Assembly: GCF_026210795.1 (NCBI RefSeq)
Contig: NC_089459.1
Span: forward strand, 2,542,001 to 2,606,000
Length of the DNA stretch: 64,000 nucleotides
Source of the DNA: Rhizophagus irregularis
Lineage: Eukaryota > Glomeromycota > Glomeromycetes > Glomerales > Glomeraceae
Direction: 5' to 3'
In this document: positions 4,308 through 60,148 of the stretch, piece by piece
How positions within the stretch are numbered: position 1 is the stretch's first letter
How the letters are laid out: every line of letters starts with the position of its first letter
Made by a program: the position numbers and the translations under genes
The notes under the pieces: model-generated
Told to the model about the DNA's origin: nothing
Database searches by the model: none
The model's input: the letters and a program-made list of their open reading frames with translations, nothing else

Positions 4308-4358
4308 CTGATTAGTTCAGTTTGATAAGGTTTTTGCCAAAACCGAAACTGAACTGAA
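4308..4358. other. junction fragment, possible MITE end
   Basis: About 50 bp containing TAGGGCTCTGATTAG and a short inverted repeat (gttcagttt and aaactgaac). It resembles the terminus of the TAGAGCTC MITE at 7634 but is too short to prove. It marks the abrupt switch from the Tigger relic to the gypsy coding region, which has no 5' LTR here. Confidence 0.3.
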
Positions 4359-23765: not shown

Positions 23766-23770
23766 CCTCT

Positions 23771-24262
23771 GTCGTCGGGCTGGTAGTGTAGTCACTACGT
23801 TCCTCCACCTTGGCCACGGCCTCGCAGTACCTACATCCCCCCTCCGTGAGGCAGGTTTACCTGCCACAGTACCATGGTCTGCCACGGTATTTTTCCACTT
23901 ATTTTTTTTTCTACATTTTTTCTTATATATAACTTACTATGACAACTATGGCAACTATGGCAGACTACTTAAAAATGGAATAAAAACGTGAATAAAGCCG
24001 AAATCAAACAGAATCTCCTGCCATAGTATCTGCCATAGTACGAAAAATCTTATAATAATACTGGGTGGCAGCCTTAGTCAGCCCCTCAGACCCCAAAACC
24101 CGATTCACGCTACGTATTACCCTTTACATACTCACCCCAGACCCTCCAAGTATGATTCCCTAGTCCCCGAACCTATGGCACCCGAACTATGGCACCCGAA
24201 CTATGACCACTTACCCCCGTCAGAAAAAATATATTCGGCAATTGAAGATTAGGTAACTATAA
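23771..24262 (+). repeat. Polinton left TIR
   Basis: 492 bp beginning GTCGTCGGGCTGG. It is about 97% identical by eye to the right TIR once the hAT is removed; most differences are C/T or G/A. It contains about ten CTATGGCA/TGCCATAG words, often in pairs, and ends in the gene-proximal TTGAAGAT motif. Confidence 0.92.
24242..24249 (+). promoter_or_regulatory. TTGAAGAT promoter-like motif, helicase gene
   Basis: TTGAAGAT lies 41 bp before the ATG of the helicase gene, at the inner edge of the left TIR. The same word precedes six other genes of this element. Confidence 0.5.
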
Positions 24263-24290
24263 ATTAGTACTCGATTTGATAGAACAAAAA

Positions 24291-26832: not shown

Positions 26833-26840
26833 TTGAAGAC
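26833..26840 (+). promoter_or_regulatory. TTGAAGAC promoter-like motif, polymerase gene
   Basis: TTGAAGAC sits 17 bp upstream of the polymerase ATG at 26858 in a very AT-rich 80-bp spacer. Confidence 0.45.
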
Positions 26841-26857
26841 AAATCATATACATAAAA

Positions 26858-28712
26858 ATGCAATACTCAAGAATTGCCCGCACTTTACCAACACGACCTG
26901 ACATCAAGGAACTTCAGTATTCCGGTGCTCGCTTTTCCAGAGGAGCTATCGCCAGACTCGGTCAGACTCTCCAGACGCGATTTCCAGATAGAAAGTTCCA
27001 GATCCTACTTCCCTATGAAAACTGGAAACCCGGTGGATGGACATCAGGAAACCAACCAGCCAGCCTCTTTTCACTATTAGACCATTATGATAAAGCACAA
27101 CTACCGGATGACGCAGACCCTGATTATTTTGAACGATTCATAATTTATGCAAGAGATAGTCCACCGGCCGCAGGAGGATGCAATGGGGAGCTAAATGATT
27201 GCCTGTATGAATGCCTAAAAAATATTTACGGCACATTCTCTAAAATGCCAAAGTCAATCGAAAAGCCCGAGTATATCAAAAAGGCATTAGGTCTCAATCG
27301 CGATGCTCCCATCCCAGTTTCATGCATGGACAAGGTTGAACAACTCGCAGGAAGTCTCGCAATTAATATTGTGGGGGACATTACCCGAATCTCTAAGAGT
27401 AAGTCCGATAGACATGCGACTCTCATCCTATCAGAAGGCCATTACTCCCTCACGTTAAATCCTGGAAGACTCCACCCCAGTAAAATAGATAAAAAGCGTA
27501 ATTTACCCATTGTATACCATGAAGATGGGACCAATAATGTAGTCACAATATACAACGGCAAAACAGTTAAGTCTTGCACAATTGCGCAGTTTCAAAAAAC
27601 TAAGAATTCCAAAAGTTCTTTCATCCCCGTCGAGAAAAACCGTAAGACTGGAGTATATGAAACTCTTGAAGAAGCATATCAGAGAATCCACGAGGAGCGG
27701 AATTCCTTTCTACAGGAGACAAAGAAGTTCGGTTTAGGAATCGACTTATCATACCATAACTGGTCTTACAAAAGAACGGCTCTCTGGTTATTCGAACGAT
27801 TAAGTGTAGGAATTCCAGCCAATGATCCTCTTGACCCGATAGAAGCGGAGTGGTTAAGTGATGCAATGATGGGAGGATTAATCTGGGCAGATAACGAGTG
27901 GAAGGGCTATGGAAGACAGTATGACGCAACAAGTTTATACCCGAGTATTCAACAATCAAACGCGAACTTTCCAATCAGACGGGGTAAATTCCAGACACTT
28001 AATGACTTTGTCGACCACAGGGGTTATGCCTTGTATGGATTATTCCGTGCCAAAATAAGTGGGAATAATATTCTCTTCCGACAGAATAAAAGGGGAATCT
28101 ATACATTCATCGACTTACAACGAGCAAAAAAACTTGGTCTCAATATACAGTTAATACAGGATGGGAAGCCAAATGCATTGATATACGATAGAGAAGCGAG
28201 AATCCCTGGAACTGTAATATTCAGGTGAGTACGTACACTTCCTCTTCAAAATTAAAAACCAGGGTGGCATAGCTGGCCGCGTGGCAAAGCGAGTCCTCAA
28301 CACATTATGGGGAGCATTATGCCAGAGGAAGCGTAATTACAAGACACTCACCACAGATCAAACAGACCCATTTACATTTCCAGAGGGCCATACACTCGAC
28401 TCTATCATACCAGTAGGATCTGACCAGTGGCGATTCCAGTTTACAAACCCGGGTAATCCCTTCAAAGGTGAGTATCCCAGGATCGCCCCATTCTTATTAG
28501 CACGTGGTCGCAAAATCACATCTGAGGCAATTCAACCATACAAGGATAAAGTACGACGTATCCATACAGACGGATTTATTTTAGAAGAACAGCCAGATAG
28601 CCCCGCGCTTTTCACTTGTTCAGAGAATGCAGATACGACTCTAAAGACTTTCAAGTTTGAAACCGCGGGATACTGCCATGTGAAAAATGCGAACAAGGTT
28701 ATCTGGACATGA
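26858..28712 (+). pseudogene. Polinton family-B DNA polymerase with OTU-like N-terminal region
   Basis: Replicates the element, presumably by protein priming as known for Polintons. Palm motif A is YDATSLYPSIQQ (about residue 366). Motif B is AKRVLNTLWGALCQ, about 28281-28325. The catalytic motif C appears as RRIHTDGFIL (28557-28586), an H-T-D-G-F form instead of the usual D-T-D. A GIYTFIDLQRAKKLGL stretch lies between A and B. A 1-bp shift at about 28227 separates two open parts (GTVIF then GEYVHFLFKIKNQ). No F-D-x-E-T exonuclease motif is seen. Instead, residues 105-200 contain CNGELNDCLYECL and ATLILSEGHYSL, reminiscent of the Cys and His boxes of OTU-type cysteine proteases (inference). 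The end at GYCHVKNANKVIW looks natural. Confidence 0.82.
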
Positions 28713-28763: not shown

Positions 28764-29093
28764 TTGAATAAACCTATGGGATATGTAATCTTACGAGATA
28801 CCCAAATGCAAAACACCGACGGATTAGGTAGACAAGACGACGAAAGTTTCCACGCGTGGGCTAAGCGCATTCAGAATGCTGTGCAATATTATGAGACTTG
28901 TAGTAGAATAGGTTTTCATAGGCGGCTACCTTATCCAAGGTCTCGTCAAGCTGTATATGCTTATATTGTGCACATTAGGAGAATAGTATCACGACTACCA
29001 AATAGGTGGTACTGTACCTACTGTAAATCTTTTATTGATCGCGGATGGGGAGCTGACGCTTTCGGATCAAGCGGTGCGACTACATTTATATAG
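28764..29093 (+). CDS. hypothetical 109-aa Polinton protein
   Basis: An open frame just after the polymerase, with no recognised family. The first ATG in context would be MGYVILRDTQMQNTDG. A Cys pair (WYCTYCKSF) near residue 85 could be half of a zinc site. Its stop overlaps the 3' end of the opposite-strand membrane ORF (29086-29247) by 8 bp, the tight packing seen elsewhere in the element. Confidence 0.4.
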   Translation: MNKPMGYVILRDTQMQNTDGLGRQDDESFHAWAKRIQNAVQYYETCSRIGFHRRLPYPRSRQAVYAYIVHIRRIVSRLPNRWYCTYCKSFIDRGWGADAFGSSGATTFI

Positions 29094-30634: not shown

Positions 30635-31042
30635 GCATTTTGTACTTGACTTTCGTAGGAATTACCCTGCAGAGTCATATTTTTTAGATCCGGCCGGCAT
30701 TACCGCGTAATCCCGAATTACCGAAAAAGGAAATTTATGTTACACAAGGTTCCAAACGCATTTTTACCAAAATCGATTTTTTGTGGAACGGGTATCGCCC
30801 AAAAAGGAAATGATCTACGTACCGCATGAAATCACGTGACACTCTACACATTTGTTCAGGGTATCACGTGACATGAACTCCGTTCACATTTTCTGTAATA
30901 TAATCCATAGTTTTTCCATGAATGCTTTTTAGGCCAATAATCCAATAACTTATTCATCAGGTATCCTCGTGTTTTGCGACAAGGACTGATGACCATGTAA
31001 CCTCATCATCAGGCATCCTCGCATTTTTTGACAAGGACTGAT
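30635..31042. other. Polinton spacer with a ~49-bp tandem duplication
   Basis: No gene. Two copies of a block reading tcatcaggtatcctcg...gacaaggactgatgac lie at about 30955-31000 and 31004-31042. The second is cut by the LINE and completed at 39211. Two cacgtgac E-box-like words occur at about 30832-30838 and 30863-30869. Confidence 0.6.
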
Positions 31043-38940: not shown

Positions 38941-39250
38941 TAATGGGCGCATTGTTCGTTGGTTTGCTTGCATAGTTGCTTCTTCTTAGGTTGGAATATA
39001 TCTAGGCGGGGATCGGGATAGTTTTAGTGTTATGCGATTTTTTTCCTTTTTGAATTAATTTTATAGCTTTATTACTGTTTTGGAGACTATATAGTTTTGT
39101 TTTTAGTTAATTTTATTTTTCTTTTTTGTACTTTGAAAATTTTATTTTATTTTTTTGTAAGTTCGTTAAATAATTTTAATAAAGATAAAGGCTACTATGC
39201 CATATTTGTCTTGACAAGGACTGATGACGATGTCACTTGGTTATTGTAAA

Positions 39251-39258: not shown

Positions 39259-39294
39259 AACAATTAGGTATGTAGACACGTACAGAAAAAAGAC

Positions 39295-39812
39295 ATGTCA
39301 TACCCTTATATAACTAATCCTATAACCGGACGTCCAATCCGTGTTGGTGGAGATACCTTTAATCGAATAGTTATGGAATCCCATGATTATATCGATGGAA
39401 GGCTTGTCCGTAGACAAACCGTACCGCCTCCACCCCAGGAACAACCTGTATATTTAAATACAGATACAGGACGCTATATTCAACACGGTACTAGAACGTA
39501 TCATAGACTGGTTGAGAGTGACTATGAGGTAGTTGAGGACTACTACCTTGTTCATTCTGAAGAGGAGGAGCTTATGAGGAAATCATCAATGAAACACGCT
39601 ATAATGAGGAAAATCTTGATGGCCAGCGGTTAACTTTCAATAATATACAACAAATCAGAGCCGCTATTCAAGCTGACCAAGATGAATATGATGATTTTAT
39701 CTTACAGCAGAATACGACTAACGGGACACCTTCCTCCGGTCCTTCCGGTCGTCCACGAACTTTGGAGGACCATGCCCCGAGACTTGCAGAGCTTAATATT
39801 GAGCTTGTGTAG
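39295..39812 (+). pseudogene. Polinton protein with two N-P-x-T-G-R adaptor-like repeats
   Basis: Two similar units: YITNPITGRPIRVGGDTFNRIV (residues 5-26) and VYLNTDTGRYIQHGTRTYHRLV (about 49-70). The pattern N-P-x-T-G-R-x-I-x-x-x-G-x-T-Y/F-x-x-L/I recalls the two-cysteine adaptor domain found in proteins of large DNA viruses, here without the cysteines (family knowledge, tentative). A 1-bp shift near 39575 separates the last part (FNNIQQIRAAIQADQDEYDDF...LAELNIELV), which ends at TAG 39810-39812. The role could be structural or linking in a particle. Confidence 0.5.
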
Positions 39813-40035
39813 GGAATGTCTCAGCGCCTGTAAGCAGTGACTTAACGGACAAGCCATGAGCGACTGCGCTTCCTAATGGTCAGTCCTCCGGTCCTCCGGT
39901 CTTCCGGTCTTTCCAACGGTTGATCCCTTAATGCCAGTTATTTTTTTTATACAAATGACAGGTATTTAAAGATAACAATATATAAAAAAGATTGTGAAGG
40001 ATACTAAGTGAGCGAATAATCAAAGAAAGATAGCC
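39813..40035 (+). promoter_or_regulatory. spacer with ccggtc repeats and a TTAAAGAT motif
   Basis: No gene. Four short ccggtcytcc/ttccggtc repeats lie at 39890-39920. A weak variant of the promoter-like word (TTAAAGAT, 39966-39973) lies 62 bp before the next ATG. Confidence 0.35.
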
Positions 40036-40500
40036 ATGTCAACATCAATCATAATAAACCAGTGTCAGAACTGTGGAGTATTCTCTGCAAAAGCGGCATA
40101 TAGAGGATTATCCAGCGTGTTGTATAGACAGATTATAAAGAAGATTGGTGACGAGAGTGAACCTTTACAAGCCTTGGGACTTGCCAGGGATAAGTTGGTC
40201 CAGATTATCCGTCGGGCAAGTAATGCGGATTTTACGCAATTATTCACACAAAGACTAGATATGAAAATTATGGACGGAGATTCATACGAGGATACTAGGA
40301 AGTGGCTTCTTGAACAGCTTATAGCCATTGGATGTGACAGTGGGGAAATTGCCTTATATCAGTTCTTACGGAATACATACCCGGATGGTATTGACGAACC
40401 CTTTACTACATTCTATGAGAACTATGTAAATCATGTAAGAAATCCGATGACTAAGAACTTTGCTTCTCGAGCCTTAGGAGGCTATTGGATTAAAAGCTAG
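40036..40500 (+). CDS. hypothetical 154-aa Polinton protein
   Basis: An intact frame with ATG in good context. It begins with a C-x-x-C pair (NQCQNCGVFSAKAAYRG) and is otherwise helical and soluble (IIKKIGDESEPLQALGLARDKLVQIIRR). It ends ASRALGGYWIKS. No family was recognised. A further 28-codon ATG frame (40502-40588, MLRIDFEGRKKSAMILRA) follows at once and may be a displaced C-terminus. It lies tail-to-tail with the ATPase gene. Confidence 0.5.
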   Translation: MSTSIIINQCQNCGVFSAKAAYRGLSSVLYRQIIKKIGDESEPLQALGLARDKLVQIIRRASNADFTQLFTQRLDMKIMDGDSYEDTRKWLLEQLIAIGCDSGEIALYQFLRNTYPDGIDEPFTTFYENYVNHVRNPMTKNFASRALGGYWIKS

Positions 40501-40601: not shown

Positions 40602-41825
40602 TTACAAAATACTATTGATCCCTACTCGTAATGCTCGACGGTCCATATGACCCTTAGAAAAGATCTGTAAAAGGACCCCGATGCCTTCTATTAATTTTTT
40701 ATTATCCAAAGGGTGACTAGACTTCAGGACTTCATATCGGGAGAATAACTCCTTTACGGTCTCAGGTTTTGGAATTTCAGTCTTCGTGGTCCTATCCCGT
40801 ACTTTCGCTAAGAAGTTTTGGAAGTCTGATCCCAAGGTCTTACCAGATAGTCCGTAGGCTTCCCGAAAGACGTACTTAATCCAGGTATCTGCGTTCTTAG
40901 CTATAACACCAGATACGAGAAGGTGTTTTCTCTCTTTAGGCGATGGATATTCCTGAGCAAACTCGATTAGCTGGGAGGACTTTTTTGCTTCAGCTACGGC
41001 TTTCTGGCCATAGGAACTAAACTTTGATCGAACTGGGTTCAAACTCGGATTGAACTTTGATCGAACTGGGTTCAAACTCGGATCGAACGGGGATTGAACT
41101 GAGATCGAACTAGGATCAAACTGAGATTGATCGGTGATCGAACGCGAGACTAGTATCCCATCAACCCCGAATAGATAACGGATCGCTCTTGGATCTTCTA
41201 AGATCAAATACTATAAATTCGCGTTGTAGAGTAAGGTCATCGATTACTGGAGCTAGTGACTCCAGTGCTTCTGTATACTGGCGGATGATCCTCTTAGTAT
41301 CGGTCAAACTTCCGTGACGCCATGTAGGAAAATATAATTCACATTTTCACGAATAGCCTTGGGAATGGTAAAGAATCTTTGGGCCACATAGATACACGAG
41401 ATATTTTTGTGACGCCCGTGTGTAAAAAATCCAGTGATGAGATCCTGGGTTTTTTTAGGCGCATCTATCAAATCCTCGAAGATTACCACAGTAGCCTAGG
41501 TGGAGTTGAAGTCCTTAACATTTGGAATCTCACTATGGGATACTGTGGTAAACGGAATTTCTTCTTCTTTGAAAAAATCACGTACGACTGCCCACTTCGG
41601 TTCATTGAGGTATCTGCCAACTAGAATTACCGCATCACATAATATGTACCTTTCACCATCCTCCTTTGCCTTCTTGTCTCCCATTAACAAATTAATAATC
41701 ATAGTTGTCTTACCCGAGTCAGAACTTCCTGCTACGGCAAGACGGAAAGGCCATGATGGGGCAAACTCATTACCCTGTCTCGAGTCAGTCGTGTACTCGT
41801 CTAAATTGTATACATAAAGATCCAT
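40602..41825 (-). pseudogene. Polinton HerA/FtsK-like packaging ATPase
   Basis: DNA-packaging-type ATPase (A32-like in viruses). The start is ATG at 41825 (MDLYVYNLDEYTTD). Walker A is AVAGSSDSGKTTMI (about residues 31-44). Walker B is [10 protein letters not shown] directly after an in-frame TAG at 41494-41496. Then [26 protein letters not shown], typical of the arginine-finger/sensor region of this family. A 1-bp shift near 41325 leads to TDTKRIIRQYTEALESLA; another leads into the long C-terminal frame (41207-40602) with a duplicated NPSLNPVRSKF-type repeat (about 41035-41105). Whether that C-terminal part belongs to the same protein is inference. Confidence 0.75.
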
Positions 41826-41853
41826 TTGAATTTTATTCTAATTTAGTTTAAAT
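41826..41853. promoter_or_regulatory. 28-bp divergent promoter region
   Basis: Only 28 AT-rich bases separate the ATG codons of the minus-strand ATPase (41825) and the plus-strand Gag-like gene (41854). The TTGAAGAT word is absent here, so these two genes probably use another signal, such as the symmetric attctaatttagttt stretch. Confidence 0.45.
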
Positions 41854-44770
41854 ATGATGTCGACACCAATTGCAATTTATACTCCTTCAGAGCCTACTGG
41901 ACCGCCTCCTAGGGATTTGCGTGATATGAATAATATACCATTAGTTGCGGTAATTAAGGATCTAACAGATTTTTTAACTGTCAGTGATCGCATGGTTGTT
42001 AATCGAGATGTACAAAATGCAAACTATCGTCTTAAACATGCTCTTAATTTATTAATTCATCGCTGTAGAGAAACATACGAAGAACGCGATATATTAAAAG
42101 CGGAACGCGATCGATTTCGAAAAGAACGCGATGAATTACAAGACGAACTCGAGGTTCAAACAGGTTTGTTAGGTCTTACACAAGATGAGCTAAATATCGT
42201 ACAAGATACTATTACTGGTTTAGAAGCTAATTTGGCTGAATTGGAACGTGAGTTTGGTGGTATGCGGACGACTAATCGTCGTCTTCAGCAGCAATATAAT
42301 ATTATGAGAGGAGAACGTAATAGAGCTATAGGTGAACGTAATAGAGCTATAGGCGAGCGTGATGTGGCACGAAATCGGCTTGTATATGCTAATAATCGGG
42401 TTCTTTTTGGAATTCGGACATTGGGACGTCTTAGGAATCGACTTTTCCAACAAATAGCCGCTCTGCGTATCCAAGTACAATGGTTTCGGATCAGACAATT
42501 GAACCTTCCTCCACCTCCTCTCAACCATCCACAAAATACGATATGGCTGCCGTTGGTATAGCTGCCCCTATATTTCATGGTCGGGGAAGATGAAGATCTT
42601 AATCTTTTTATTGATAACTTTTTAGGGTATATTAATACCGTTGGTATTGATCCATTGGACGATGCCGGTGCACCTCCGGGTCGGGTGCGAGCGATGGGGG
42701 TTCTTCGTAGCTGTATGAGAGATGAAGCGGCGAGGTGGTTTGATGCAGAACTTACTGGAAAAAATTGGGAACTCTCGAATATTCGGTTAGTGGCGGCTAC
42801 TGCAAATGGTGGAGCCGGTGCGTACTCGCTGAGCGTTCTTCAGAGCCTTTAGCTGTTCCTGAGGTTGCTAATGGATTACATGTTGGTACTTACTTACCCG
42901 GGTCTGATGTTGATGCATATTCAAGGATTTTAGCTAATGCGGCGAGAACCGTTGGAGAAACATTTTTCCCATCACGCGCTGATATCGTTAGAACGAATTT
43001 TAAAGTTCGAAGAGCAGTGGAGGCGTGCGGGCGGACGTCCTACTCATCAACCCGTTAATGGGTTGGGAAATCATGGAGGTCCATTTAATGCTGCTGTCCA
43101 GAATCAACCAATAGTCTTACAGGGGATTCTCCTGGATCAAGCATTTATGCATATGCGTACAAATTTTCCAACCGTCGTGGAAGAAAGACTTCAAATACGA
43201 TTTAGTAACCTTTACCAGGAACAAGATGAACCTGTTCGATCTTACTATAAGCGAGTTGAGAGGGCTGGGGATATTGTAGGATATAATCGAATTATGGTTA
43301 CCGACCAGTTCTATAGAGGACTTTTGCCGGAAAACGTTATTGAAGCTCCAGAATCGGGCGGCACTCTTAATATATTAATCGATAGATTGAGTGATCTTGA
43401 GCGACGAAAGGGCGAAATGTTCTATGGATTACAAAGGCGTCAGGGTATTGAAAAGGCTAAAAAAGAGGAATTGGCTGGCTATACTCATCCCGTCCCGACT
43501 CCACACGAAGGTGCTGTAATACAAAGGTCGACAGACGTTATTACTCAAGAACGATTACAAGAATTGCTCAAGGCACAAGCCGAGGAACTTACCAAGAATT
43601 TCCAGGCACAATTTAAACAATTACAAGCATCTAAGCCAGTTCATAAACCACCGGTCTATAGACAACAGATTAAACCTGTTCGGCCAAAGCCACGGCCACG
43701 CGTTGTTCAGGATCATCAGGATCCTGATTGGGATGATGGTTATGTAGATCATGATTTTGGTGATGACCCTGGTGACCCTGATGCTCCTGAGTGGACTAGT
43801 GAGGATGATCAACATGTTATTGATCTTATTATGGGATATGAGACGTCTAAAAGATTTCCAAAGAGACTTCAGAAGGCTAAAGATAGACGCGATGATCTGG
43901 AATTAGCCCGAGCAATGAGAAACCTCGATCTTAATGATGATGCTATGGATATTGATACTAATACCGCGAGTTTTGATGACTTGAAAATTGTTCCCGATGA
44001 GGAAGGTGGTTTTCGGATTTGTGCGGTTCGAAGTACAAAAAAAAAAGTAAACTCGGATAAGGGTGTAAGTATCTCGAAACTTCTTAAATCTGTTCCAAAA
44101 AAATCAGTTAAAATGACTCCTATTAAGATTCCTGTGAAGGTTACTAGTAGTAAGCCCACACTTATAAAAGCCGTCACCAAAAATGATTCATTAAGTTTAT
44201 TAAGGTCTGCAGATTTTAGAAAATTACTCCGCGAGATTCTTCGGGAAGAATTAAAGTCTGCTCGTAAAAGTATGGAGATTCCAGAAGACCTAGTTGAGGA
44301 AAAACAAGAAGAGGATATCAGGGGAAGATGACCCGATGGATATTGACATAGCTCGTTTGGAGAATACTAAAGATCTTTTAGCGCTGGATGGGGAGGTCAA
44401 TGGGATAGCAATTCAGTGTTTAGCAGACACTTGTGCTAACGCGTCTTTTATTCAGAGGGAAGCCGCTGAAGAATTAGGGTTGGATATCGACAAGAGTATT
44501 ACACATAACATATCCGGCGCTCCGGGTTCTGGTAGGACATTCGGCATGGTAAAAGGTGTGTCAATCAAACTAACCCCTGATTGCGTAATCACTGAGAATC
44601 TCGCGGTTTTAAGCGATTACAAGCATAGGGAGATTGGATTGAGCCGGACGTGTCTGAAACGTTACAATTATGATGTCCATGAATCACGTGAACATATCGC
44701 CCTTACTTGTAATGAGAAGAATGTTTTTATCCCGATAGTTTCTGACGTGAATCGAGGAGACAAAAAATAG
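41854..44770 (+). pseudogene. Gag-like protein with retropepsin-like domain in the Polinton
   Basis: About 970 codons over several frames. N-terminus: acidic/neutral head, then a long coiled coil (about 75-220) with a duplicated RNRAIGE motif. Capsid-like region from 42555: AAPIFHGRG, DEDLNLFIDNFLGYINT, RSCMRDEAARWFDAELTGKNWEL. Next comes MRTNFPTVVEERLQIRFSNLYQEQDEPVRSYYKRV, as in retroelement Gag. A Pro/Lys linker and acidic stretch follow. A retropepsin-like end has IQCLADTCANASFIQREAAEEL (D-T-C-A-N in place of D-S/T-G-A, 44413-44478) and HREIGLSR. Shifts near 42545, 42585, 42830, 42990 and 44325. No RT, RNase H or LTR accompanies it; it abuts the ATPase start and ends 14 bp from the integrase gene, so it reads as a resident gene. 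Confidence 0.65.
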
Positions 44771-44784
44771 GGAATATTTATTTT

Positions 44785-45895
44785 TTATTCCCAAAACTTG
44801 CGGATTAAGGCAGGGACATCCTCCTCCAACCGGTCAGCGGGTTCCCAAGTGGCTTCGGTATCTGGGTATCGTTCCCACTTGACTAGATACTGGTCTTGAC
44901 CCTTCCTGATGCGATGCCGGAGTATCCGCTCAGGTACAAATCTTTCGGGTTGCCCTCTTATCACGGAGTCAGGTGGGGGATGTTCATTTTCTGGAACAAT
45001 CTGCAACTCTTTTCAGGTGTACGCACATTTGGATACACCTAGACGCCCGTGTGGTCCATCAAGAAGATACGTAGGAGGCTGTTCGGGTGAGAGGATCATT
45101 TTTTTGATGACACGGATATTGGGATTCCATCTTATGTCACCTGTACGAAATTTTCCATGGAGTTTATTCCCGAGTACTGAAATAGGTTCGTCTAACTTGA
45201 CTCGGACATGTGTTCCTTCAGAGAGAAGTTCCGTCTTTTTTGACACTTTGGGTGACCCTGTCGGAATGTCTGGGGGATTTCTCTGCCAGATTTCATCTAT
45301 TTTATTAACTACATCACGGAAATCTTCTAACCATTCCACGGATGTCACCCCGGTCTTCAACTCCTGTGCCACCATTCGTTTTAGGAGAGGTTCCTGGATT
45401 GCTTGGATGGCTCGTTCAGCGTATGATTGCTGTTTGTGTCTTCCTGGTTCGCCGAACCTCATCATCACCCTAGGCTGTTCAGGAAAAAATCACGTACCTG
45501 ATCATTGGTGAATTCTGATCCGGAGTCTGTCTCTATTCGATGTGTTGGTGGCTTAATGCGATTTCTTCTGTAGATTTTAACAAATCCATTGAGAACCTTA
45601 TTTGCGGTTTTATCCTTTAGGGGCTCTGCATCGACTTGTTTACCCGCGACTTCCACCACTACGAGGAAATAGTGGAATCCTTTGGGGTCGACTGGCATCT
45701 CTGCAAGATCTGCCTGATGTGTTGCATTTGGTTTCCATACAACTACTCGTGGACGCTCTGATGACTTCTCCTTTAGGGGCTTTTTATATAGGTTGTAGTG
45801 CTCCTCACCTTTTAGAATTCGTGCCGGTCTCTGGAGAGATTGTAGTATTTGTAGTAATTCTCTAAATGCGACATATTACGACAAATTAAAGGAAA
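44785..45895 (-). pseudogene. Polinton integrase with C-terminal chromodomain
   Basis: Retroviral-type DDE integrase that inserts the element. Reading leftwards from about 45895: LYKKPLKEK, ADLAEMPVD (first Asp), IETDSGSEFTNDQ (second Asp) and SYAERAIQAI (Glu), then a C-terminal part with HVRVKLDEP. The final chromodomain is RILRHRIRKGQDQYLVKWERYPDTEATWEPADRL (44820-44925), expected to bind methylated histone and guide integration. Lesions: 1-bp shift near 45467 and in-frame TGA 45010-45012 (CAYT stop KELQ, likely from CGA). No ATG is in frame at the N-terminus; an ATG in another frame at 45880-45882 (MSHLENYYKYYN) may be the original start before an indel. The H-H-C-C zinc domain is not visible. 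Confidence 0.85.
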
Positions 45896-45918
45896 GATTT
45901 CGGACTTCAAATCTTAAG

Positions 45919-46239
45919 ATGACATGATTTTACTGCCTAAAGTGTAAGAAGGAAACCGAGACTGCTAGTGAAATACAAGATATGACCACAAATGGCCGCT
46001 ATCGTTTACATGGCGACTGTGTAGTTTGTGGGATGCATAAGAATACTTTTACTGGGATAGACTGGGTTATCAAAAAGAAAACCAAGGAGAAGAAAAAAGA
46101 AACTGCGGCTAAAAGACATCAGACGGCGTACAATCGGCAATGCAAAAAACTCGGGCAGAAAATCTTAGATTCTGATGACACGTGTAAGCAGTGTATTGAT
46201 AAATGCCTTAAGGAGGCAAAAAAGAGGAAGACGGATTAG
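45919..46239 (+). pseudogene. zinc-ribbon protein (DUF5679-like), TGA at codon 3
   Basis: From the ATG at 45919 the frame reads M-T-stop-F-Y-C-L-K-C-K-K-E-T-E, then TTNGRYRLHGDCVVCGMHKNTF. The two C-x-x-C pairs about 35 residues apart and the N-G-R between them match the small zinc ribbon found in many DNA viruses and Polinton-type elements. TGA at 45925-45927 is probably a mutated CGA. Without it, translation could restart only at 45982, which lacks the first C-x-x-C. A very basic tail (KKKTKEKKKETAAKRH) and two more Cys pairs (CKQCIDKC) follow. A nucleic-acid-binding or structural role is inferred. Confidence 0.65.
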
Positions 46240-46248
46240 TACCGCCTT

Positions 46249-46764
46249 CTAAAAGTATTCCTCATCATCTGAGTCATCGAGAGATACCTCTCCATCATCT
46301 GATTCATCATCCGAGTCATCAGGAGTGCGACCTTCCTTAAGCAATTGGATGTCGTACGTTATTTGAGTCCATTTCTCCCAGTCAGACTCTTGCGTTATAA
46401 AGCCGCATCTGAGGAGTGCTCTTTCTATTACTACCATCCCTGCAAACCTGGTGTATTTTTTCTGATCGGCTTCATTGAAATTGTCAATGGCTTCTTTGTA
46501 GTAGTCTACTGCCTGTTTGTATACCTCTTCGGCTTCTTTATGCCGCTTCCACAACTCGGCTTTACAACAGTTATACCAGAGTCTGTTAATCTTGAGATGT
46601 TTTCCGAATTCTTTAACCGGAAGGTTTCTGACCATCTCTGCTACTATGTCCGAGTCATTGAGGGGTGATGCCTGAATTTGGATCCATTTACGGATTCCAT
46701 AGATGTCTACAAGATCAAGCCCGAGGTCTTCGGCAAGAGAAGTGGCGGCGTGTAAGTTTATCAT
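46249..46764 (-). CDS. hypothetical 171-aa acidic-tail Polinton protein
   Basis: An intact frame starting at 46764 (MINLHAATSLAEDLGLDL), the last gene before the right TIR and convergent with the zinc-ribbon gene (10-bp gap). The helical centre (KAELWKRHKEAEEVYKQAVDYYKEAIDNFNEADQ) looks TPR-like. The last 30 residues are mostly Asp/Glu/Ser (DDSDDESDDGEVSLDDSDDEEYF). No family was recognised. It is driven by the TIR-edge motif. Confidence 0.55.
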   Translation of the reverse strand: MINLHAATSLAEDLGLDLVDIYGIRKWIQIQASPLNDSDIVAEMVRNLPVKEFGKHLKINRLWYNCCKAELWKRHKEAEEVYKQAVDYYKEAIDNFNEADQKKYTRFAGMVVIERALLRCGFITQESDWEKWTQITYDIQLLKEGRTPDDSDDESDDGEVSLDDSDDEEYF

Positions 46765-46787
46765 TGTATGTTACTTATAGTTACCTA

Positions 46788-46823: not shown

Positions 46824-49800
46824 TAGTGATCCCGGGCGAAACCGAAATATTTAGTCATGTGACGAAACCGAAATTGTTTCGTCAATGCATTTCAAATTAC
46901 GAAATTCCGAAATATTTCGTCACATGACTAAACCGAAATTATGACTAAACTGAAAAATATATTTTTAGTTTTTTTTTTTATTTTACAAATATATCGACAC
47001 GTTTTCAAACACAATTTAGTAAAATTTATTAAATATTATACATACAATATGCTAAAATATTAACAAATAAACACAGCTTTATAACAATATTATTATATTA
47101 TACACCATAAAATAATCCCTCTCACGATAGTGACGATACCATAATCTTTCATCCCATATGAATAAAATTGTACCAATCCTTTTATAGATTTCTATATACC
47201 AACACGATGCATTCTATATCTAACTTACCAAACTTACCATCCCTCATAAATCAACTAATCCATCAAATCTAACTATAATCTTTACAAGTCACAATTTCGG
47301 CCCTCGGCGTACTTTAATGTCCTCGTAACTAAATCTATAATTACTCTAACTACAAAACCTTCCCGAGTCACAATTTCTGCCTTCAGCATACTTTGAACGT
47401 CCTAAAGTTAAACTGTTGTTTAGTAACCGACTACTACTATATCTGCGAAATTGTCAGATTACTCTAACTTCCAAGTTAGATTAGACGAAGACGAATTTTG
47501 AGTTGAAAAAAATTGATCATCTGATCAATATTATATTGGATTATCATGTAGCACAGTTTTGATTACGGACTGTGAAACTTTAATTATCGTTATGATCAAA
47601 TCAACGATAATCAATAACTGTTAAAATAGAAAAAAAACCCACGAGGCACGACCGCACGAGATACCAAATGACTTTATATATTGCCAAAAGTCACGTCAAT
47701 GTATTACTTTCGCTGTTTTGCTATATTCATAAACGTTCAATATTCTATAAAAAATGGACACTCCAACTGAACAACAAAAGAAGAAAGGTGGTCGTCCTCA
47801 AAGAAGTATGGGAGACACATGGTAAGAAACCGCTCAAGCTGCGGTACTATTTTTCGGCCAAATGTAATTATTGTAGGACATATTGGCCTCGTGGTCATCC
47901 AAATGAGCTAGAAGATCACCTAGCAAACAACTGTAGAGAAGTTCCAGAACTTGTTCATTCGTTCTACTTAGGTGTAGTTTCTGCGCGGGATTTTGGAAGG
48001 GAAGATACCTTTTCTTCGCCAGAAAATAGTAAAAAAAGAAAAACTCAGGTGGACCAGCGGGAGTTGACTGATTGGTTTGAGTCAACTAACATAAATTCTC
48101 AAAAAAAGGCTTCTATTACTCGTGCTCTTGTGCGCGCATTTATATGTTGTGGTATTCCGTTCTCAATTATTGAGAATCCATTTTTTATTGAATTTCTTCA
48201 CGAAATGAGACCAGGATATGAGCCTCCAACAAGCGAATTGCTAAGTGGTAGGCTTTTAAATCAAGAAACAGCAAGAATTAATGACAAGATTAAGGAGATC
48301 ATTAAAAATTCTGAGAATTTAACACTTGGTAAGTTTTGTTATCAAATGAATTTACAAAAATTTTTAAAATTTTAAATTCTAACTGTTTAACTCTTTAACT
48401 CTTTAAGCACTTGATGGCTGGACAAATCCGAATGGTGTTTCTGTTTATAACTATGTAATCCTAACTCCTGATCGAGAACAATACCTTTATGCTCTTCATG
48501 ACTACTCAGGCGATCATCATACAGGAGATTTTCTTGCAGGCCAAATTACGGATATTATCAAAAAAATTGGCCCTGAAAAAGTTTCTGCATTAGTTACTGA
48601 TAATGCCGCGAATTGCGTTAAAGCAAGGGAAATTGTTACGAACCAATTTCCAAACATTATTGATCTTCGGTGCATTGCTCATTTCGTCAATTTAGTAACC
48701 AAACAGATTATGGGTATGTTTCAAATTCTATAAAATAATTATGAATTATTGTTAAAAATTCATCTTTTTAACCTTTTTTTTTAATTTTAGAACATGATTT
48801 GGCTAAAATAACGATCAGTGGCTGTAATCAGATTACATCATTCTTTAAACGTTCTCATATAGTAGGAAAATTGTTGACCGATGCTACTACTACATTACAA
48901 ATCGTAGGAGGAGGGCTTAAAACATACTGTGAAACAAGATGGACTTCCATGTATGAAGCTGTAAGTTCCGTATCTCGTTTACGAATGGCACTAGAACATG
49001 TGAGTTTATTTCAATATCTATAAATTCTTATTTTGTTATTGTAATATTACTGATTATTAATAATATTTTGTAAAATATTTATAGGTTTTGAAGAATAATC
49101 CTAATGAAATCACAAATAAAAGTGTTAGACGAAATATTCGAAGCTCGGAATTTTTCTCAAACGTTGATAAATTAACCAAAGTTCTAAAGCCGATTAAAAC
49201 TGCAATTACCTTACTTGAAAGTGCTAATGCAAACCTTGCCGATTGCTTTCTTCAATTGATTTTAATAGCAAATACTATTAAAAAATTACCTTCTCGAGGA
49301 ATGGTAGAATTTCATCAACATTGTATCGAATCATTTAACAAATATTGGGACAAGTTTGATCCAAAAATCTATATTTTGGCATATTTTTTACATCCTGCCT
49401 ATCGCGGTTAGTAAAATCCTAATTTTTTAATGAAATTATTTATTAAAAGAAAATAAATTGATTTTTTTATAAATATTTAATAGCACGTGGGTTAAAAGCA
49501 GTATATTGGAAAACTATCACTACTACCGCGGCTCAGATTTGGCAAAATAATGGTGGTGACAGGAGGTCATGTAATCGTCTTTTGGCACAAATGCGTAATT
49601 ATGAATTGCGAAAGAGTCCATATAATCAAGAGTTTGATAGCCATCTTGAAACACCAATGAGTTGGTGGCTTACAATCAAAGACAAGTATGATTATCTTCC
49701 TGCATTGGCTATAATGGTGTTTTCTATCACTCCACATAGTGCAGGATGCGAAAGAATTTTTTCCACTCTTGGCTGGTTATATGGTACACGACGGCAACGA

Positions 49801-50559
49801 TTAGGACTTTTAAAGGGTTGAGGCTATGGCAAAAATTCGGTCGTTTTACGTATCTAATATTAAAAATGAGCTTGCTTATGTTAGTCAACAATATACAGAG
49901 GATGAAGTGCATGAAATGATTAATGATTCAACATTTTTACAATTTGAAGAGGAGGAAGATGAAATTGATAATAGAAGAAATATTCCTATTTCAGAAATTC
50001 CTAATCATGAAGTACGGGTTTTGATTATTGAAGAAATGTTTAATTTAAAAAATGCAGTAAAATGTTTGAATAATGATGGTGAAAATTCGGATGACAGTGA
50101 TATTAATGATGATGTTAATGAAACTGATGGTAAAGATGAACTAGACGATAGTGATGAAAATGTAGAAATGGAAAGTAATTATGATGTTGAAGAATTAATT
50201 CAACAATATTCAATTGATAATGAATTAGAAGGAGACACTTTATAATCAATTTTATATTAGAAATCGTATTTTTTTCACATGCTTATAACTTTTTTGATAA
50301 TAATATGTTGAAAATTGTGTTACATTTTCTTTGAAATTTATTAAAATTATACATATACTAAACGTAAAATAAAATAATTATATTATAATTGGCTAGTTTA
50401 CTAAACCTTAAATACTATGTTGTACTATAAATATATTTCGTCATTTCGGATATACATTTAAGTTTCGGAATAAGTTTAGGTTTCGGAATTAATTTATCCT
50501 TCAAAAAAAAAAGACGAAATATTTCGGATTGAAAAAAATAGTTTCGCCCGGTATCACTA
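46824..50559 (+). mobile_element. hAT transposon, 3.7 kb, nearly complete
   Basis: Termini TAGTGATCCCGGGCGAAAC and the complement of TAGTGATACCGGGCGAAAC, with an 8-bp duplication GACGGGGG (46816-46823, 50560-50567) inside the Polinton TIR. Subterminal blocks of gacgaaaccgaaat and gaaatatttcgtcacatgac form inverted repeats at 46840-46930. One multi-exon transposase gene is present. The 46932-47750 leader is AT-rich without another gene. Confidence 0.92.
47754..50245 (+). pseudogene. hAT transposase, 5 exons, 1-bp lesions
   Basis: Cut-and-paste transposase. Exons with consistent phase: 47754-48328, 48409-48713, 48791-48999, 49085-49406 and 49484-50245. BED-type zinc finger: C-N-Y-C...H-L-A-N-N-C near 47865-47935. 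Catalytic-core landmarks: ALDGWTNPNG (Asp), LVTDNAANC (Asp) and RCIAHFVNLV. The hAT C-terminal dimerisation domain is SWWLTIKDKYDYLPALAIMV...SAGCERIFSTLGWLYGTRR. An acidic tail ends EGDTL. Start ATG 47754 (MDTPTEQQKKKGGRPQ) needs a 1-bp shift near 47812 to join the zinc-finger frame. A second shift lies near 49815 (LGLLK to VEAMAKIRS). Two small repairs would give a full protein, so this is a young copy. Confidence 0.85.
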
Positions 50560-51013
50560 GACGGGGGTAAGTGGTCATGGAGTTCGGGTGCCATAGTTCG
50601 GGTGCCATAGTTCGGACATAGGGAATCATACTTGGAGGGTCTAGGTGAAAGATATAAAGGGTAATCATAGCGCGAATCGGGTTTTGGGGTCTGAGGGGCT
50701 TGACTAAGGCTGCCATAGTATTATTATAAGATTTTTCGTACTATGGCAGATACTATGGCAGGAGATTCTGTTTGATTTCGGCTTTATTCGCGTTTTTATT
50801 CCATTTTTAAGTAGTCTGCCATAGTTGCCATAGTTGTCATAGTAAGTTATATATAAGAAAAAATGTAGAAAAAAAAATAAGTGGAAAAATACCGTGGCAG
50901 ACCATGGTACTGTGGCAGGTAAACCTGCCCCACGGAAGGGGGATGTAGGTACTGCGAGGCCGTGGCCGAGGTGGAGGAACGTAGTGACTACACTACCAGC
51001 CCGACGACCCTCT

Positions 51014-54708: not shown

Positions 54709-57700
54709 TTACCAGAAAAAAATCCTAAGAGGTTGAACTGTTAAGCGGCGCAGAAAATCCAAGTGCGAGATCCATGATCCACCCCGAATTATAGAAGAGG
54801 ATATCCAAGAAATCCAGGAATCCTGAGAGACTGACGCCAAAGGAGAGCTGTGTTGGTGTGGAGAAGTAGCAATAGGAGAAGAATTTGTAGATGGGCCATG
54901 TAATTTGGAAGCAGCCGAGATACCCTGCGACTCTTCCCAAGCATGGAAAAGAACATTCCGACACAGCCAAATTTCACCATATAATTCGACTTGGAAGTCA
55001 TTAAGAAGGGGAGAAATGATCTTGTATATAACAGAGAGAGGAAAGTGTTGATTCAAAAATGCCGTTAAATGCGCAGGCAACAATCCTCTAGTGAGCCAAA
55101 GACAGGATGGAGAAGGAGTTTCATAGTTCCAACAATCCAAAGCAAAGAATTCGGTATGAAAGGAAATATCCAAAGATTTCAAGGATAGGAGAGAAGATAA
55201 ACAAGAATCTCTAAATTTAATGACTGCAGAGCGGTGTGTTAAACAGGGATTTAAATCCGGTAAAATATAAGGACATGTCCAAAGATGATTCAAATCTTCA
55301 GGAGCAGAATTACACTGCGGACAGAGCCAGTCAGGAAAATATAAGTAAGGTTTGCGTTGTTGAAGAGTAGTTAAGGTAGGCAACATATCCAAAAGAAGTT
55401 TAATGCGGAAGATCCAAAATTCAGGACGACCATTCCTATGTGAAGCAAAACCTTTAATTTGTGAAAGGCAAAAATATATACCAGCCCAATCAAAAAGTGA
55501 AGGAGAACCAAGAGCAGTAAAACGCGCTAGTGAACAGAAAGATAGAAAAGCACGAGCATCTGCTATAGAGCGGAGAAAATGACGAATATTCACGTCAATA
55601 GGCAAAGAATTAAAAGTCAACAAGCATGGAGCATAACAAAATGCTGAAGGTAGAGCAATGGGTTGTGAAGACGAATGAGCATCTTTTGCCAGAGAATCCG
55701 CTTGGATATTATAAATATCATCGCTATGAGCAGGGACTTTAATCAAATCGACATTAAGATTGCGGTCCATGATAAGTTGTCGAATAGAAAGCCAAAGAAA
55801 ATGATTAGGTTCTCGGAGCAGCTTCGGTGAGAAAGGAGCATCAACAAACCGTGTCCATAGTGAAATTAATTGACTACAATCAGTATGAATAGAGATTGAA
55901 GAATCACGGGAAAGGGCGCTCAATCCTAATAAAACAGCAGAAATTTCAGAACGCAAAGCTGAAGGGAAGTAGGAAGGGAGATGCATAGAGGAAGATTCTA
56001 GGACAAATCCATCATCATCGAGAGCAATCCAAGCAGAAGTCATGGAAGAAGGCGAAGAATCATTGGTAGGATGGAACGAACCATCTGTGTACAAAGATTG
56101 CACAGAAAGCGGCAAGATATTATCTTCGATTCTGTCCTTAAAGGAAGGAGAAAGAGCAGGAGACGCGTTCGAAAGATGAACAAGAGCCAAGGAAGTGGCA
56201 TAACTCCATGAAGTAGATAGAGTAATGGGAAGGTAGGCCGCGAAAACTTTGGCATTTCTGGTAGGATAGCCCACAGTATCCGATAGAGTTACATTAAAAA
56301 AACATTTCTCGCTATTACAGCGTTGTCTGATGGCAGATTTCATGGATAAGGCGGGAATGTTAAGAGCACAACCGGGACAAGGGTCATAGGATCGTTCATC
56401 AGCCGACGTAGATACAGGAAGCCAATGAGACATAATAGCCGAGTTTTGTTTCTTATAAGTGATACACACACGACCAACAGATAAAGTTTGAGTAGCAGAG
56501 TCAAAATTAATAGCCCATTGAGGATAAAAAGAATAATCTTTAACAGTATGATCTAATAAACAAGGAGAAGCTAAAGTAAGAGAAGAATTAATAAAATATG
56601 AAGGTAAAAGTAAAGTAGAAGAGAAAGAAGAAAGAAAATTATTATTAATAAAGGTAAACCAATTAGGGATCCGTCCTTTACGACCAACGATACCAAGATA
56701 ACGAAGGTCAGGCCAATTCATAAGATAACGTACACAAGGAGAAACCAATTGAGCAAGCACAAATATATTCAAGTTTTTCCAAAGTTTCCAACTCGATCGA
56801 AAAATGGAATGAGGTAGAATAGATCGAAGTGGCAAAGCAGGTTGTAGATCATGCCTCGGAGGTCGGAAGGAAAGAGACCACGTGATATTCAAACGCGAAG
56901 AAAACAATAGCGAATTAAACAAAGTGTGCGTTCGCAAAGAAATGATCTGTGACCATGGTTCTAAGTTAATAGTAGTCGGGCAACTTTCAGCACCCAAATA
57001 TCCTTGAAGATAGGAGATAGCATAAAGGGCAAAATCTTTGAAATCAGGATGAGTGAAAATTTTTTGCCAAGATGCTATATGGGAAGAAAGAAAGCGATAA
57101 AAAGCATTCTGAATCGAAAAGGGAAGTTTGAGAAATAACAAGGGCAACGGAGTAGTCGTAGCAAGACCAGCTTTTCTTCGAAGTACTGAAAACAGAGGCT
57201 TGACAATTGATTGAATAGTACTTTCAGAGAAAAGGGTAGTTTGAAGACGAAATTCCAATCGCGGAAGAAGGACAGCATTATAGAGATAGGCCACATGTTG
57301 TGCTAATAATTTCTTCGGTCCCAGGAGAGCAGCCATATCTTTAACCATGGAGCGCGCTTGTTTGAGAACAAAATCAGAAGAGGCGGATAAAGAAAACCAA
57401 ACACCTAAAAAGCGAAATGAAGTATTAAGAGATAAAGAAGAAAGGGAAAGAGAAGTATCGGAAACTAAAGAAGAGGGTAAAAGTTCAAAAATAATTTTTG
57501 AAGAAGGCGAAGAGGATGAAAGAAGGACATATTTTGCTGAATTGGCTTGAACATTATTTAAAGTATAAAATTCAGCAGTAATAGAAAGACGATCTTCTAT
57601 TCTGGACTTTGAAGAGGCAATAAGTGTAGAATCATCCATAAACGTTAAATGTGAAATTGGTAAGGAATGTTATTCAAATTCAAGTGGAGAATAATTTAAA

Positions 57701-60087
57701 AGAGCTGAAGATTTTAAATTAAAAGGATCTCGTGCTTCTTGATTCAATACAGTAAGTAAAGGATCCAAATAAATAACCCAAAGAAGAGGGGAAATGATTT
57801 CTCCTTGATCGATACCAACACGTACTCTATAAGTAGCTATATCGCCATGACAAGTAATAATCTTATTATTTCGTCGTGTAAAAAGATTCAAAATAAATCG
57901 CACCAAAAGTGCAGGGATATGTAATCTATCTAAAGCTAATTTGAGCATATTTAAATCCATAGAATCAAAAGCTTTAGAGATATCTTGAGAAACGATCCAT
58001 AGTTCCTGATCATCAGTAGAGTCATGCTTATGTTGATGGATAATCGCATCAAGCATTTTGATAGGGACATCAGTAGAACCACCAGGTAAACCAGCAAAGT
58101 TACCACCTTGGAGAACTTTATTATCAGCAAGAATGTTGGAGAGACGATTCGTGACGACTTTAACTACACATTTTCGAACCGTTTCCAAAAGAGTAATAGG
58201 TCGAGTGTTCTTAAGTTGAGCATCAAATTCGTGAGGTTTAGGAATAGGATAAACCACAGCTTCACGCCAGTCAGCAGGAATATCACCGCGAGAAAGGCAG
58301 GTATTGGCCAGTAAAAGAGAGAAATCCAAGGCTTCACCGGACAGATGTTTAATCATCTCATAAGAAATTTTTGAAGGGCCGGAAGCTTTGTTATTTGGCA
58401 TGGAGGAAGTCACAGTAGACCATTCATGTAGCGAAATAGGCGCCAAAACAGGATCATATAGTGAAGCAGACACATTAGCAAGGGGAGTGTAAGCTTGTTG
58501 CCATCGGGCGGAAAATGAAGTGATGGAAGAATAGCGGACCAACGGGGGAGAAACAATCGATTGAAAATGAGAAATAGCAGCTTGTTTAATGTCCGAAGGA
58601 TCCGTTAATAAAGTAGGAGTTGAGTCCAAAACGACCAGAACACGGTCAAGAACAATTGAACGTTTTTCTACTGATAAGGCAGAATCTATAAAGGTGCCCA
58701 GCGAGTTCGAAAAGTGTTCGTCACGTAGTGCAGTATAATATTCCACTGAGTCCGTAAGGTGTTGGGCGAATTTAGTAGATAAAAAGGCAGAAACTAAATT
58801 CTTCTGTGATCGTAAAAACGATTTAAATACTGATGCAGGGTTTGTAGAATAGGTAGGGACTGAGTAATCAGGGAGTAAGGATGCAAGATTATCAAGATGG
58901 GAGGGCAAAGCGGCAGTCATTTGCGCAATCTGAGTAGGCCGATTAGAATGTCGAGTAGTAAGGCGATATAAGAATCGATCTAAAAACTTGTTAATAGCAA
59001 TAAGTTTAGTTAAATCAGGAGAGTACGAATGTCGGTGTGTATTGGAGACTTTATGAAAGGGTAAAGTTTCAATTGCAGCACTAATTATGGCAGCTTTCAA
59101 AGCATGCCACATACGATCAAGAGAAAGAGAGGAGAAATCAAAATTAGGGTGATATTGTCTATCTAAATAAACTCCAAGAGAATCATCCACTTCAGCAGTA
59201 AAATTATTCCATTGTTCAGTTGAAGTGGAAGTATAAGAGAAAATAGTACGCATTTCTTTTTTCTGTTTGAGTCGAGATTTAGCCAAGATAGCCAGGCAAG
59301 AACTGAAGTCAAAAACAGTTGTAAGCACTTTATGATCGGTAAAAGGACGATCAAGGAGACCCGGGCAAGTAATCACTTGTGAAAAAAGACCAGGAGCAGG
59401 AAAACCAGGTGAAGACCAGATATAATCCAGTCTCGAAGATCCGTTATCATAAAAGAAGGTCGGATCAGGACCATTTGTAGAGGAGTGAGCTTGATGATCG
59501 GTAAAAAACTGAGAAGAAAGCAAGCGAAGAAGCTTAAAATGATTAGGTGAATAATTAGAATGAGCGATTATATCAGCATTGAAGTCGCCAAGAATAATTA
59601 CAAAATAATTATTAGCACGGGCGTAATCGAGCCAAGAAAGAAGTTTGGCAATAAGATCATTGCAAATAGATTGATGAACAGAACCAGAAGGGGGATAATA
59701 TACAGAAATAATAGAAAGTTTTGTTTGATGAAAAAACAAATCTAATTTAAGAAGTCGACCATTCCAAGGATCAATTGTTTGAACATGTTTATGAAGGGGA
59801 TTACGTAACAAAATACCAACACCATCATGAGGGCGAGAAGAAGAAGATGAACAAGCCCAATAAGACTTAAAGTGATGTTGGGAGTGTTCATTTTTAAAAA
59901 TAAATTTAGCATTTGAAGGGGAAAGACGCGTATCATTAATAGATAAAGCACCAAAAGAGGAGTGAAGAAAAAAATTAAGCAAATGTTGTTGTCGAACTGA
60001 TGAACATAAACCATTAACATTTAATTGACCAAATTTAATAAGGGGAGAGGGGTGAGGAGAAAAATTATGTTTATTGTTGTCCGTCAT
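54709..60087 (-). pseudogene. LINE 2 ORF2, one stop codon from intact
   Basis: A 1,792-codon frame interrupted only by TAA at 57667-57669, ten codons before the RT active site. Endonuclease: GQLNVNGLCSS, INDTRLSP, ILGDFNADI, SRLDYIWSS and TDHKVLTT. RT: RPITLLETVRKC, GLPGGSTDVPI, SQDISKAFDSMDL, RVRVGIDQGEIISPLLW and FMDDSTLIASS (catalytic D-D). RNase H: LYTDGSFHP, LRSEISAVLLGL, IHTDCSQLIS and VPAHSDDIYNIQADSLAKDA. Zinc element C-P-Q-C-x8-H-x3-C near 55290-55340. The start ATG at 60087 (MTDNNKHNFSP) is 62 bp after ORF1. This enzyme nicks DNA and reverse transcribes the LINE RNA at the target. Confidence 0.9.
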
Positions 60088-60148
60088 TATTACACACTGA
60101 TAAATCGGTAATAAAGAAGGGGGAGAAAAAAAAAAAAAAAAGGAACAA

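Follow-up and report, generated by a model that had tools for sequence, protein, structure and literature searches.

A window of 64,000 nucleotides from Rhizophagus irregularis (contig NC_089459.1, positions 2,542,001 to 2,606,000) was analysed, and we found that the Polinton at 23771-51008 of this window, a degraded copy of a high-copy R. irregularis family, carries a retroelement-type Gag and protease between its ATPase and its integrase. The element is a Polinton by its family B polymerase, rve-chromo integrase, A32-type ATPase, terminal inverted repeats (TIRs) and target duplication. This architecture is real, conserved and unexpected, and the Gag-protease is common to three or more types of DNA element that bear an integrase and differ in their polymerase. 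A first-pass annotation of the window had described one hybrid element; the hybrid gene content stands, while the phenomenon is wider than a single element. Taken as a whole, the explanation that we propose, Polintons using a retroelement-type Gag-protease as their particle-forming module, is probably correct, and Gag, instead of a jelly-roll protein, would likely form their particle.

We searched the genome (146.7 Mb, 32 contigs) and obtained at least 152 protease matches, distant ones included. The window copy belongs to family A, which shares its gene order with a family B and has a DNA identity of about 80-84% with it over the longest common pieces. The two families had 115 protease loci after merging, not counting a set of about 30% identity or the second, short fragments of split copies. 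The integrase was convergent within 12 kb of 103 of them (86 within 100 bp), the ATPase was divergent within 15 kb of 100, and both were present at 94/115 and neither at 6. Conversely, with all 110 integrase matches and the ATPase matches minus second pieces as input, a protease was nearby at 104/108 integrase loci and 101/103 ATPase loci. Because of these linkage counts, the presence of Gag-protease beside ATPase and integrase cannot be due to chance. A clean empty site at the borders of the gene was also looked for, and the same counts revealed no such relative among the A/B loci, although the few loci lacking a protease (4 with integrase, 2 with ATPase) were not read. A comparison of one A copy with one B copy (L022 and L029) gave ratios of nonsynonymous to synonymous substitutions (dN/dS) of 0.40 for gag, 0.15 for the protease, 0.59 for the coiled coil, 0.10 for the ATPase and 0.07 for the integrase. 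Considering the value of 0.40, Gag is fast-evolving yet constrained. The Gag-protease, inherited with its neighbours in the same order, is almost certainly integral to these elements and is not a passenger.

Within the window, the region consists of a coiled-coil open reading frame (ORF) at 41842-42561, Gag pieces up to 44331 and a protease ORF at 44294-44770, flanked upstream by the divergent ATPase and downstream by the convergent integrase. Reading these ORFs confirmed the coiled coil, Gag and retropepsin-like region of the first-pass annotation, the protease having two Pfam matches that pass the cut-offs (Asp_protease_2, E 2.1e-8; gag-asp_proteas, 9.6e-7), and its gaps of 28 bp to the ATPase start and 14 bp to the integrase end were correct on re-measuring. 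The supposed single gene of 2.9 kb is divided in better-kept copies into three ORFs (coiled coil, Gag and a protease in the -1 frame). There, the Gag ATG sits 19 nt inside the coiled-coil ORF (4/5 copies tested) and the protease ORF has about 255 codons. The predicted structure of a Gag homologue from family C, described below, contains a retroviral-type capsid domain and a retropepsin with the single-domain aspartic protease fold. As the model for Gag of the window's own family was too poor to use, support for the capsid fold is drawn from the homologous family C. Comparison of the helical Gag model listed no jelly-roll match, which has no bearing on whether a jelly roll is present. The Gag of L022 has matches of up to 100% identity among database proteins named Rhizophagus irregularis DAOM 181602=DAOM 197198. 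Database models of 800-920 amino acids combine the coiled coil, Gag and the protease in one protein by placing introns between them. We rejected introns in this gene, as the first one is coding in the coiled-coil frame in families A and B and the models disagree on the second. In the public gene models (database entries P0001-P0167), the introns look like artefacts of joining overlapping frames.

The Gag ORF ends with AAA AAA AAG followed by TAA in family A or TAG in family B, and it is the -1 frame that is open for the protease. Counting only sites with exact flanks, a run of nine A (A9) was present at 30 of the 42 family A sites (A8 at 9, A10 at 2 including the window, A11 at 1) and at 37 of the 47 family B sites (A8 at 6, A7 at 3, A6 at 1), numbers that homopolymer errors in the assembly could blur. 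A run of A7 or A10 aligns the two frames, and L030 and L031 have a single ORF of 737 codons. In family C, A9-G followed by TGA ends Gag in 6/7 loci (L034-L038 and L040), and in 4/7 an open -1 frame leads from the run through the protease; in L035 and L037 this frame stops after 40 and 37 codons, respectively, and a different frame encodes the protease proper, and L039 has no A run at the junction. A family D locus (L044) has an A10 run there, a protease in -1 and a Gag stop 7 codons further. The flanks of the run are unrelated between families. It is the sole A run of at least nine in A/B coding stretches; those of C and D contain one or two more. The form A-AAA-AAG fits the X-XXY-YYZ pattern of -1 sites, and single minimum free energy folds of 74 nt downstream, made to look for a hairpin, gave -6.3 to -8.8 kcal/mol at 4/4 sites, computed without a shuffle control. 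Judging from the sequence, slippage by -1 at the A run, by ribosome or polymerase, would produce the Gag-protease. A second A9 run at the extreme end of the protease ORF (L038:7527-7535, L040:7536-7544, L044:5669-5677) is either a second slip site or merely a lysine-rich end.

We also looked at the other element families with this protease, the proteases of A/B, C and D being 24-37% identical. Family C has ATPase (Pox_A32, 2.8e-10), integrase (rve, 1.2e-9 in L037 and 0.049, under the cut-off, in L038), coiled coil, Gag and protease in an order unlike A/B, and usually, 4-5 kb beyond the protease and convergent with it, another type of DNA polymerase. In L042 this polymerase contains DNA_pol_B and exo1 domains, and its top PDB match has an E of 7e-86; the matched entries 9l8u and 8ywg, titled 'DNA polymerase', we take to be the polymerase of African swine fever virus. 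Merging pieces and dropping three short matches reduced 78 polymerase matches to 41 loci, and 31 family C protease loci were selected. The polymerase lies 2.8-9.1 kb downstream on the opposite strand at 26/31 protease loci, an ATPase is within 15 kb of 25/31, and the protease is near 27/41 of the asfarvirus-like polymerase loci. The locus of L037 and L042 is C4:4006664-4022663, with family C protease and asfarvirus-like polymerase. No TIR was found for family C at the one locus tried. At L036:5777-9998, an A/B-type helicase and polymerase adjoin a family C protease, the element there being nested, adjacent or chimeric. In family D (L044), integrase (-), Gag and protease (+) and polymerase (-) are present; its integrase reaches rve E 0.006, under the cut-off, and its polymerase, which had no match in Pfam, PHROGs, NCBIfam and PDB searches, contains DANNLYG, NSVYGKTMEN and DTDS, presumably motifs of Polinton polymerases. 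Relatives of the family C Gag were found by name in R. clarus, Glomus cerebriforme, Entrophospora, Paraglomus, Cetraspora, Diversispora, Gigaspora and Ambispora, suggesting that the Gag protein is old in Glomeromycotina, even if some of them may belong to other elements. A search of viral contigs gave 73 pattern matches and 0 confirmed, in a set from which records near the window's genome may be excluded.

Neither a double jelly-roll major capsid protein (MCP) nor a penton had a Pfam match in the ORFs scanned, the small ORFs not having been folded; a jelly-roll capsid in relatives, which would have spoken against the earlier proposal, was looked for and not found within these scans. An adenovirus-type cysteine protease had no Pfam match in the scanned ORFs either, and a whole-genome search with PF00770 gave no match, its control matching nowhere as well. 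As for retroelement parts, the earlier remark that no reverse transcriptase (RT), RNase H or long terminal repeat (LTR) accompanies the gene agrees with our results. Leaving aside nested long interspersed nuclear elements (LINEs), no RT or RNase H ORF was recognised with gag in the ORF lists and selected Pfam scans of the window and the listed A-D copies. No LTR-like repeat flanks the gene in the window, where direct repeats at 24000-50000 form two families of 57 and 51 nt. The integrase is on the strand opposite to gag in A, B, C and D.

The morphogenesis module had been proposed to be replaced or supplemented by Gag-protease. Its stable presence in A/B and in divergent families agrees with this, and functional replacement of the capsid is what we infer from it. 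In the mechanism that we propose, the element would be copied as DNA and Gag translated alone. A small share of ribosomes would slip -1 at the A9-G run that immediately precedes the Gag stop (or the transcript would gain one A there), yielding Gag-protease. Gag may then assemble into a shell through its capsid domain and the coiled coil, the protease would mature this shell, the ATPase may load DNA into it, and the integrase would insert the element copy. Several points sit uneasily with this picture. No particle of these elements is known, and we are not aware of any Gag shell that is filled by an A32-type ATPase. Moreover, among 53 non-A/B ATPase loci and 50 D/E protease loci selected by reading, 28/53 of the former have no C/D protease within 15 kb and 0/50 of the latter have an ATPase. 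The 28 ATPase loci suggest that other Polinton families may lack Gag-protease or have another capsid; ATPase loci without Gag-protease nearby include C9:53873, C22:634382 and C2:3488017.

The absence of the ATPase from D/E loci also favours a functional Gag-protease that is not a capsid, coating or transporting nucleic acid within the cell or interfering with rivals as domesticated Gags do, the element being a pure transposon. Consistent with this, no envelope or penton gene was seen in the scanned ORFs, and a hyphal fungus needs no extracellular stage for DNA to spread. On the contrary, the A/B ATPase is constrained and family C retains it at most loci (values above), although it would be expected to be lost without packaging, and a protease together with a slip site is what a maturing particle needs. 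We consider a non-capsid Gag rather unlikely, if the best of the alternatives.

Another explanation is that a jelly-roll capsid is present, too divergent or too short to be detected, and that Gag-protease is accessory. Missing MCPs were indeed later found in elements of Trichomonas and Phytophthora, according to the accessible parts of two papers (PMC10120064, PMC7805220). Excluding integrase-antisense and flanking ORFs, the longest unassigned sense ORF in the listed A/B copies has 203 amino acids, whereas double jelly-roll proteins are longer as a rule. Other groups that searched R. irregularis for an MCP did not find one either, as far as the sections available tell (PMC7805220, PMC10640383). 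A hidden jelly roll is in our judgement improbable.

Least probable of all is an LTR-retrotransposon fragment inserted between ATPase and integrase of one Polinton and amplified as a passenger: Gag and retropepsin are of retroelement type and another gag-looking ORF lies near 5.7 kb of the window (an impression only), but the module also occurs in A/B, C and D with differing gene orders and polymerases, is under purifying constraint, keeps its frameshift site across families, has no LTR-like repeat in the window and stands at nearly every A/B ATPase and integrase locus. Its recent-insertion version is largely refuted, a recent LTR insertion being ruled out by the A/B linkage counts, and an ancient capture of Gag-protease kept for use is the explanation that we propose itself.

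The elements resemble Polinton/Maverick in their family B polymerase, rve-chromo integrase, A32/FtsK-type ATPase, TIRs, short duplication and length of about 15 kb when nested inserts are excluded. They differ in having Gag-retropepsin, while the scans detected neither a jelly-roll MCP or penton nor a protease of the adenovirus type. With LTR retrotransposons of the Ty3/Ty1 type and retroviruses they share the capsid-type Gag, the retropepsin, the -1 slip site between gag and protease and, in families C and D, a CCHC knuckle; unlike these, they have a DNA polymerase and an integrase on the opposite strand, and no RT, RNase H or LTR was found. In the portion of Krupovic et al. that is open (PMC4028283), a jelly-roll MCP gene, whether intact or split, is reported for more than 80% of Polintons, and its absence is read as concerted loss of capsid genes. 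Elements of G. intraradices (R. irregularis) were among the Polintons without detectable MCP, again with none in 2021, and fed the idea that some Polintons became plain transposons (PMC7805220, in the part available). Adintoviruses or 'meldviruses' are also DNA elements of the Polinton group with capsid-like proteins, a handful of accessory proteins having remote HHpred similarity to retroviral capsid; unlike the present elements, a great majority have a clear penton gene, and the available text describes no Gag-protease unit, the word gag occurring 0 times (PMC11071296). Beyond that remote similarity, the literature within our search, which most subscription papers lie outside, describes no Gag-protease in Polintons. 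Studies of transposable elements in R. irregularis either list the Maverick order or note its recent expansion, and the word capsid is absent from their accessible portions (PMC8647823, PMC11075540).

Polymerase sequences of R. irregularis were reported to branch within Asfarviridae (PMC5294986, partial text). Apart from the large region that they describe, Zhao et al. found 15-33 copies of polB in each R. irregularis genome, read the dispersed copies as possible widespread, ongoing infection and reported no A32-ATPase in these genomes, going by the excerpts available (PMC10640383); contrary to the last point, A32-ATPase loci were found here. The dispersed asfarvirus-like PolB is the same polymerase type as in family C, beside Gag-protease at the loci counted above, and an alternative reading is that these are genes of a mobile Gag-carrying element and not of many giant-virus infections. 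Since Gag-protease occupies the place of the missing capsid gene, the capsid of R. irregularis Polintons may have been swapped, not lost, across the line between retroelements and DNA viruses. If a particle were demonstrated, it would be a new kind of double-stranded DNA virus shell. Whether DNA viruses or virus-like elements of glomeromycetes have passed a retropepsin-processed, slippage-made Gag shell among two Polinton-like and one asfarvirus-like polymerase backbones stands, for us, at even chances.

In the window, the gene order is superfamily 3 (SF3) helicase-primase, family B polymerase, small ORFs, ATPase (-), coiled coil/Gag/protease (+), integrase (-), an ORF with DUF5679 (+) and a 173-aa ORF (-). 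The features are as follows.

23771-24262, + strand: left TIR, outer end GTCGTCGGGC, duplication CCTCT at 23766-23770
24246-26773, + strand: SF3 helicase/primase-like gene, broken (DUF5906, Pox_D5; single ORF of 841 aa in copy L025)
26837-28712, + strand: family B DNA polymerase, Polinton-type, in pieces
28764-29093, + strand: ORF of 109 aa
29347-29766, + strand: ORF, 168 aa in copies L021-L024
31043-39210, + strand: nested LINE, foreign to the Polinton, 15-bp duplication TTGACAAGGACTGAT at 31028-31042 and 39211-39225
39268-39633, + strand: ORF with a weak match to a 2-cysteine adaptor (203 aa in copies L021-L024)
40012-40500, + strand: ORF, 191 aa in copies L021-L024, dN/dS 0.10 between families A and B
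40602-41837, - strand: A32-type packaging ATPase, broken, start codon 41823-41825 (Pox_A32, 1.5e-8 in copy L022)
41854-42561, + strand: coiled-coil ORF, overlapping the gag start by 19 nt
42543-44050, + strand: Gag-like gene, frame-broken (492-534 aa in copies L022, L023, L027 and L029)
44037-44046, + strand: slippery run of A between Gag and protease, A10 here and A9 in most copies
44047-44770, + strand: aspartic protease of retropepsin type, its N-terminal linker interrupted by one frame break in this copy
44785-45913, - strand: rve integrase with chromodomain, broken (376 aa in copy L022: rve 7.2e-8, Chromo 4e-17)
45928-46239, + strand: small ORF with DUF5679 domain (4.5e-18)
46249-46770, - strand: ORF of 173 aa
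46775-46823, - strand: right TIR, inner part
46824-50559, no strand assigned: nested hAT-like element, foreign to the Polinton, 8-bp duplication GACGGGGG
50568-51008, - strand: right TIR, outer part, duplication CCTCT at 51009-51013

The TIRs are about 490 bp long, and CCTCT flanks the element directly on either side. The middle of the Polinton is split by the LINE and the right TIR by the hAT-like element, whose insertion masked the true right end. The TIR previously placed at 24212-24262/46775-46825 is a real repeat, but it is only the inner edge, and these 51 bp are ruled out as the terminus by the longer TIRs flanked by CCTCT, with true ends at 23771 and 51008. Subtracting the nested inserts and their duplications gives, by arithmetic, an element of about 15.3 kb. 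A family B copy has ATCCT outside each end, so that the duplication is of 5 bp in 2/2 elements with both ends read. The target duplication of Polintons is usually 6 bp. For related elements, duplications of 5-7 bp are given in the available part of one paper (PMC7805220).

In the window copy gag, ATPase and integrase are all broken; several other copies are open in those genes. The polymerase reached DNA_pol_B_2 with E 4.2e-5 in copy L025, its 23.1 bits being under the cut-off of 25.8, and in the window we read DATSLYP, NTLWG and HTDG, which we take to be family B polymerase motifs. R. irregularis appears in the legend of a tree of protein-primed polymerases, in the text at hand (PMC4409740). 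The helicase at 24246-25805 is 85-90% identical to that of L025 in its last third and 26% in the middle, and a family B copy, L033, matches the window at 91% DNA identity in the stretch divergent from L025, a pattern that suggests recombination between families. The nested LINE has an endonuclease-like ORF. Elsewhere in the window, 54709-61445 (-) contains a second LINE-like set of long ORFs, of 986 and 835 aa, and 4353-6350 (+) has ORFs of 464 and 200 aa resembling retrotransposon gag, by impression only.
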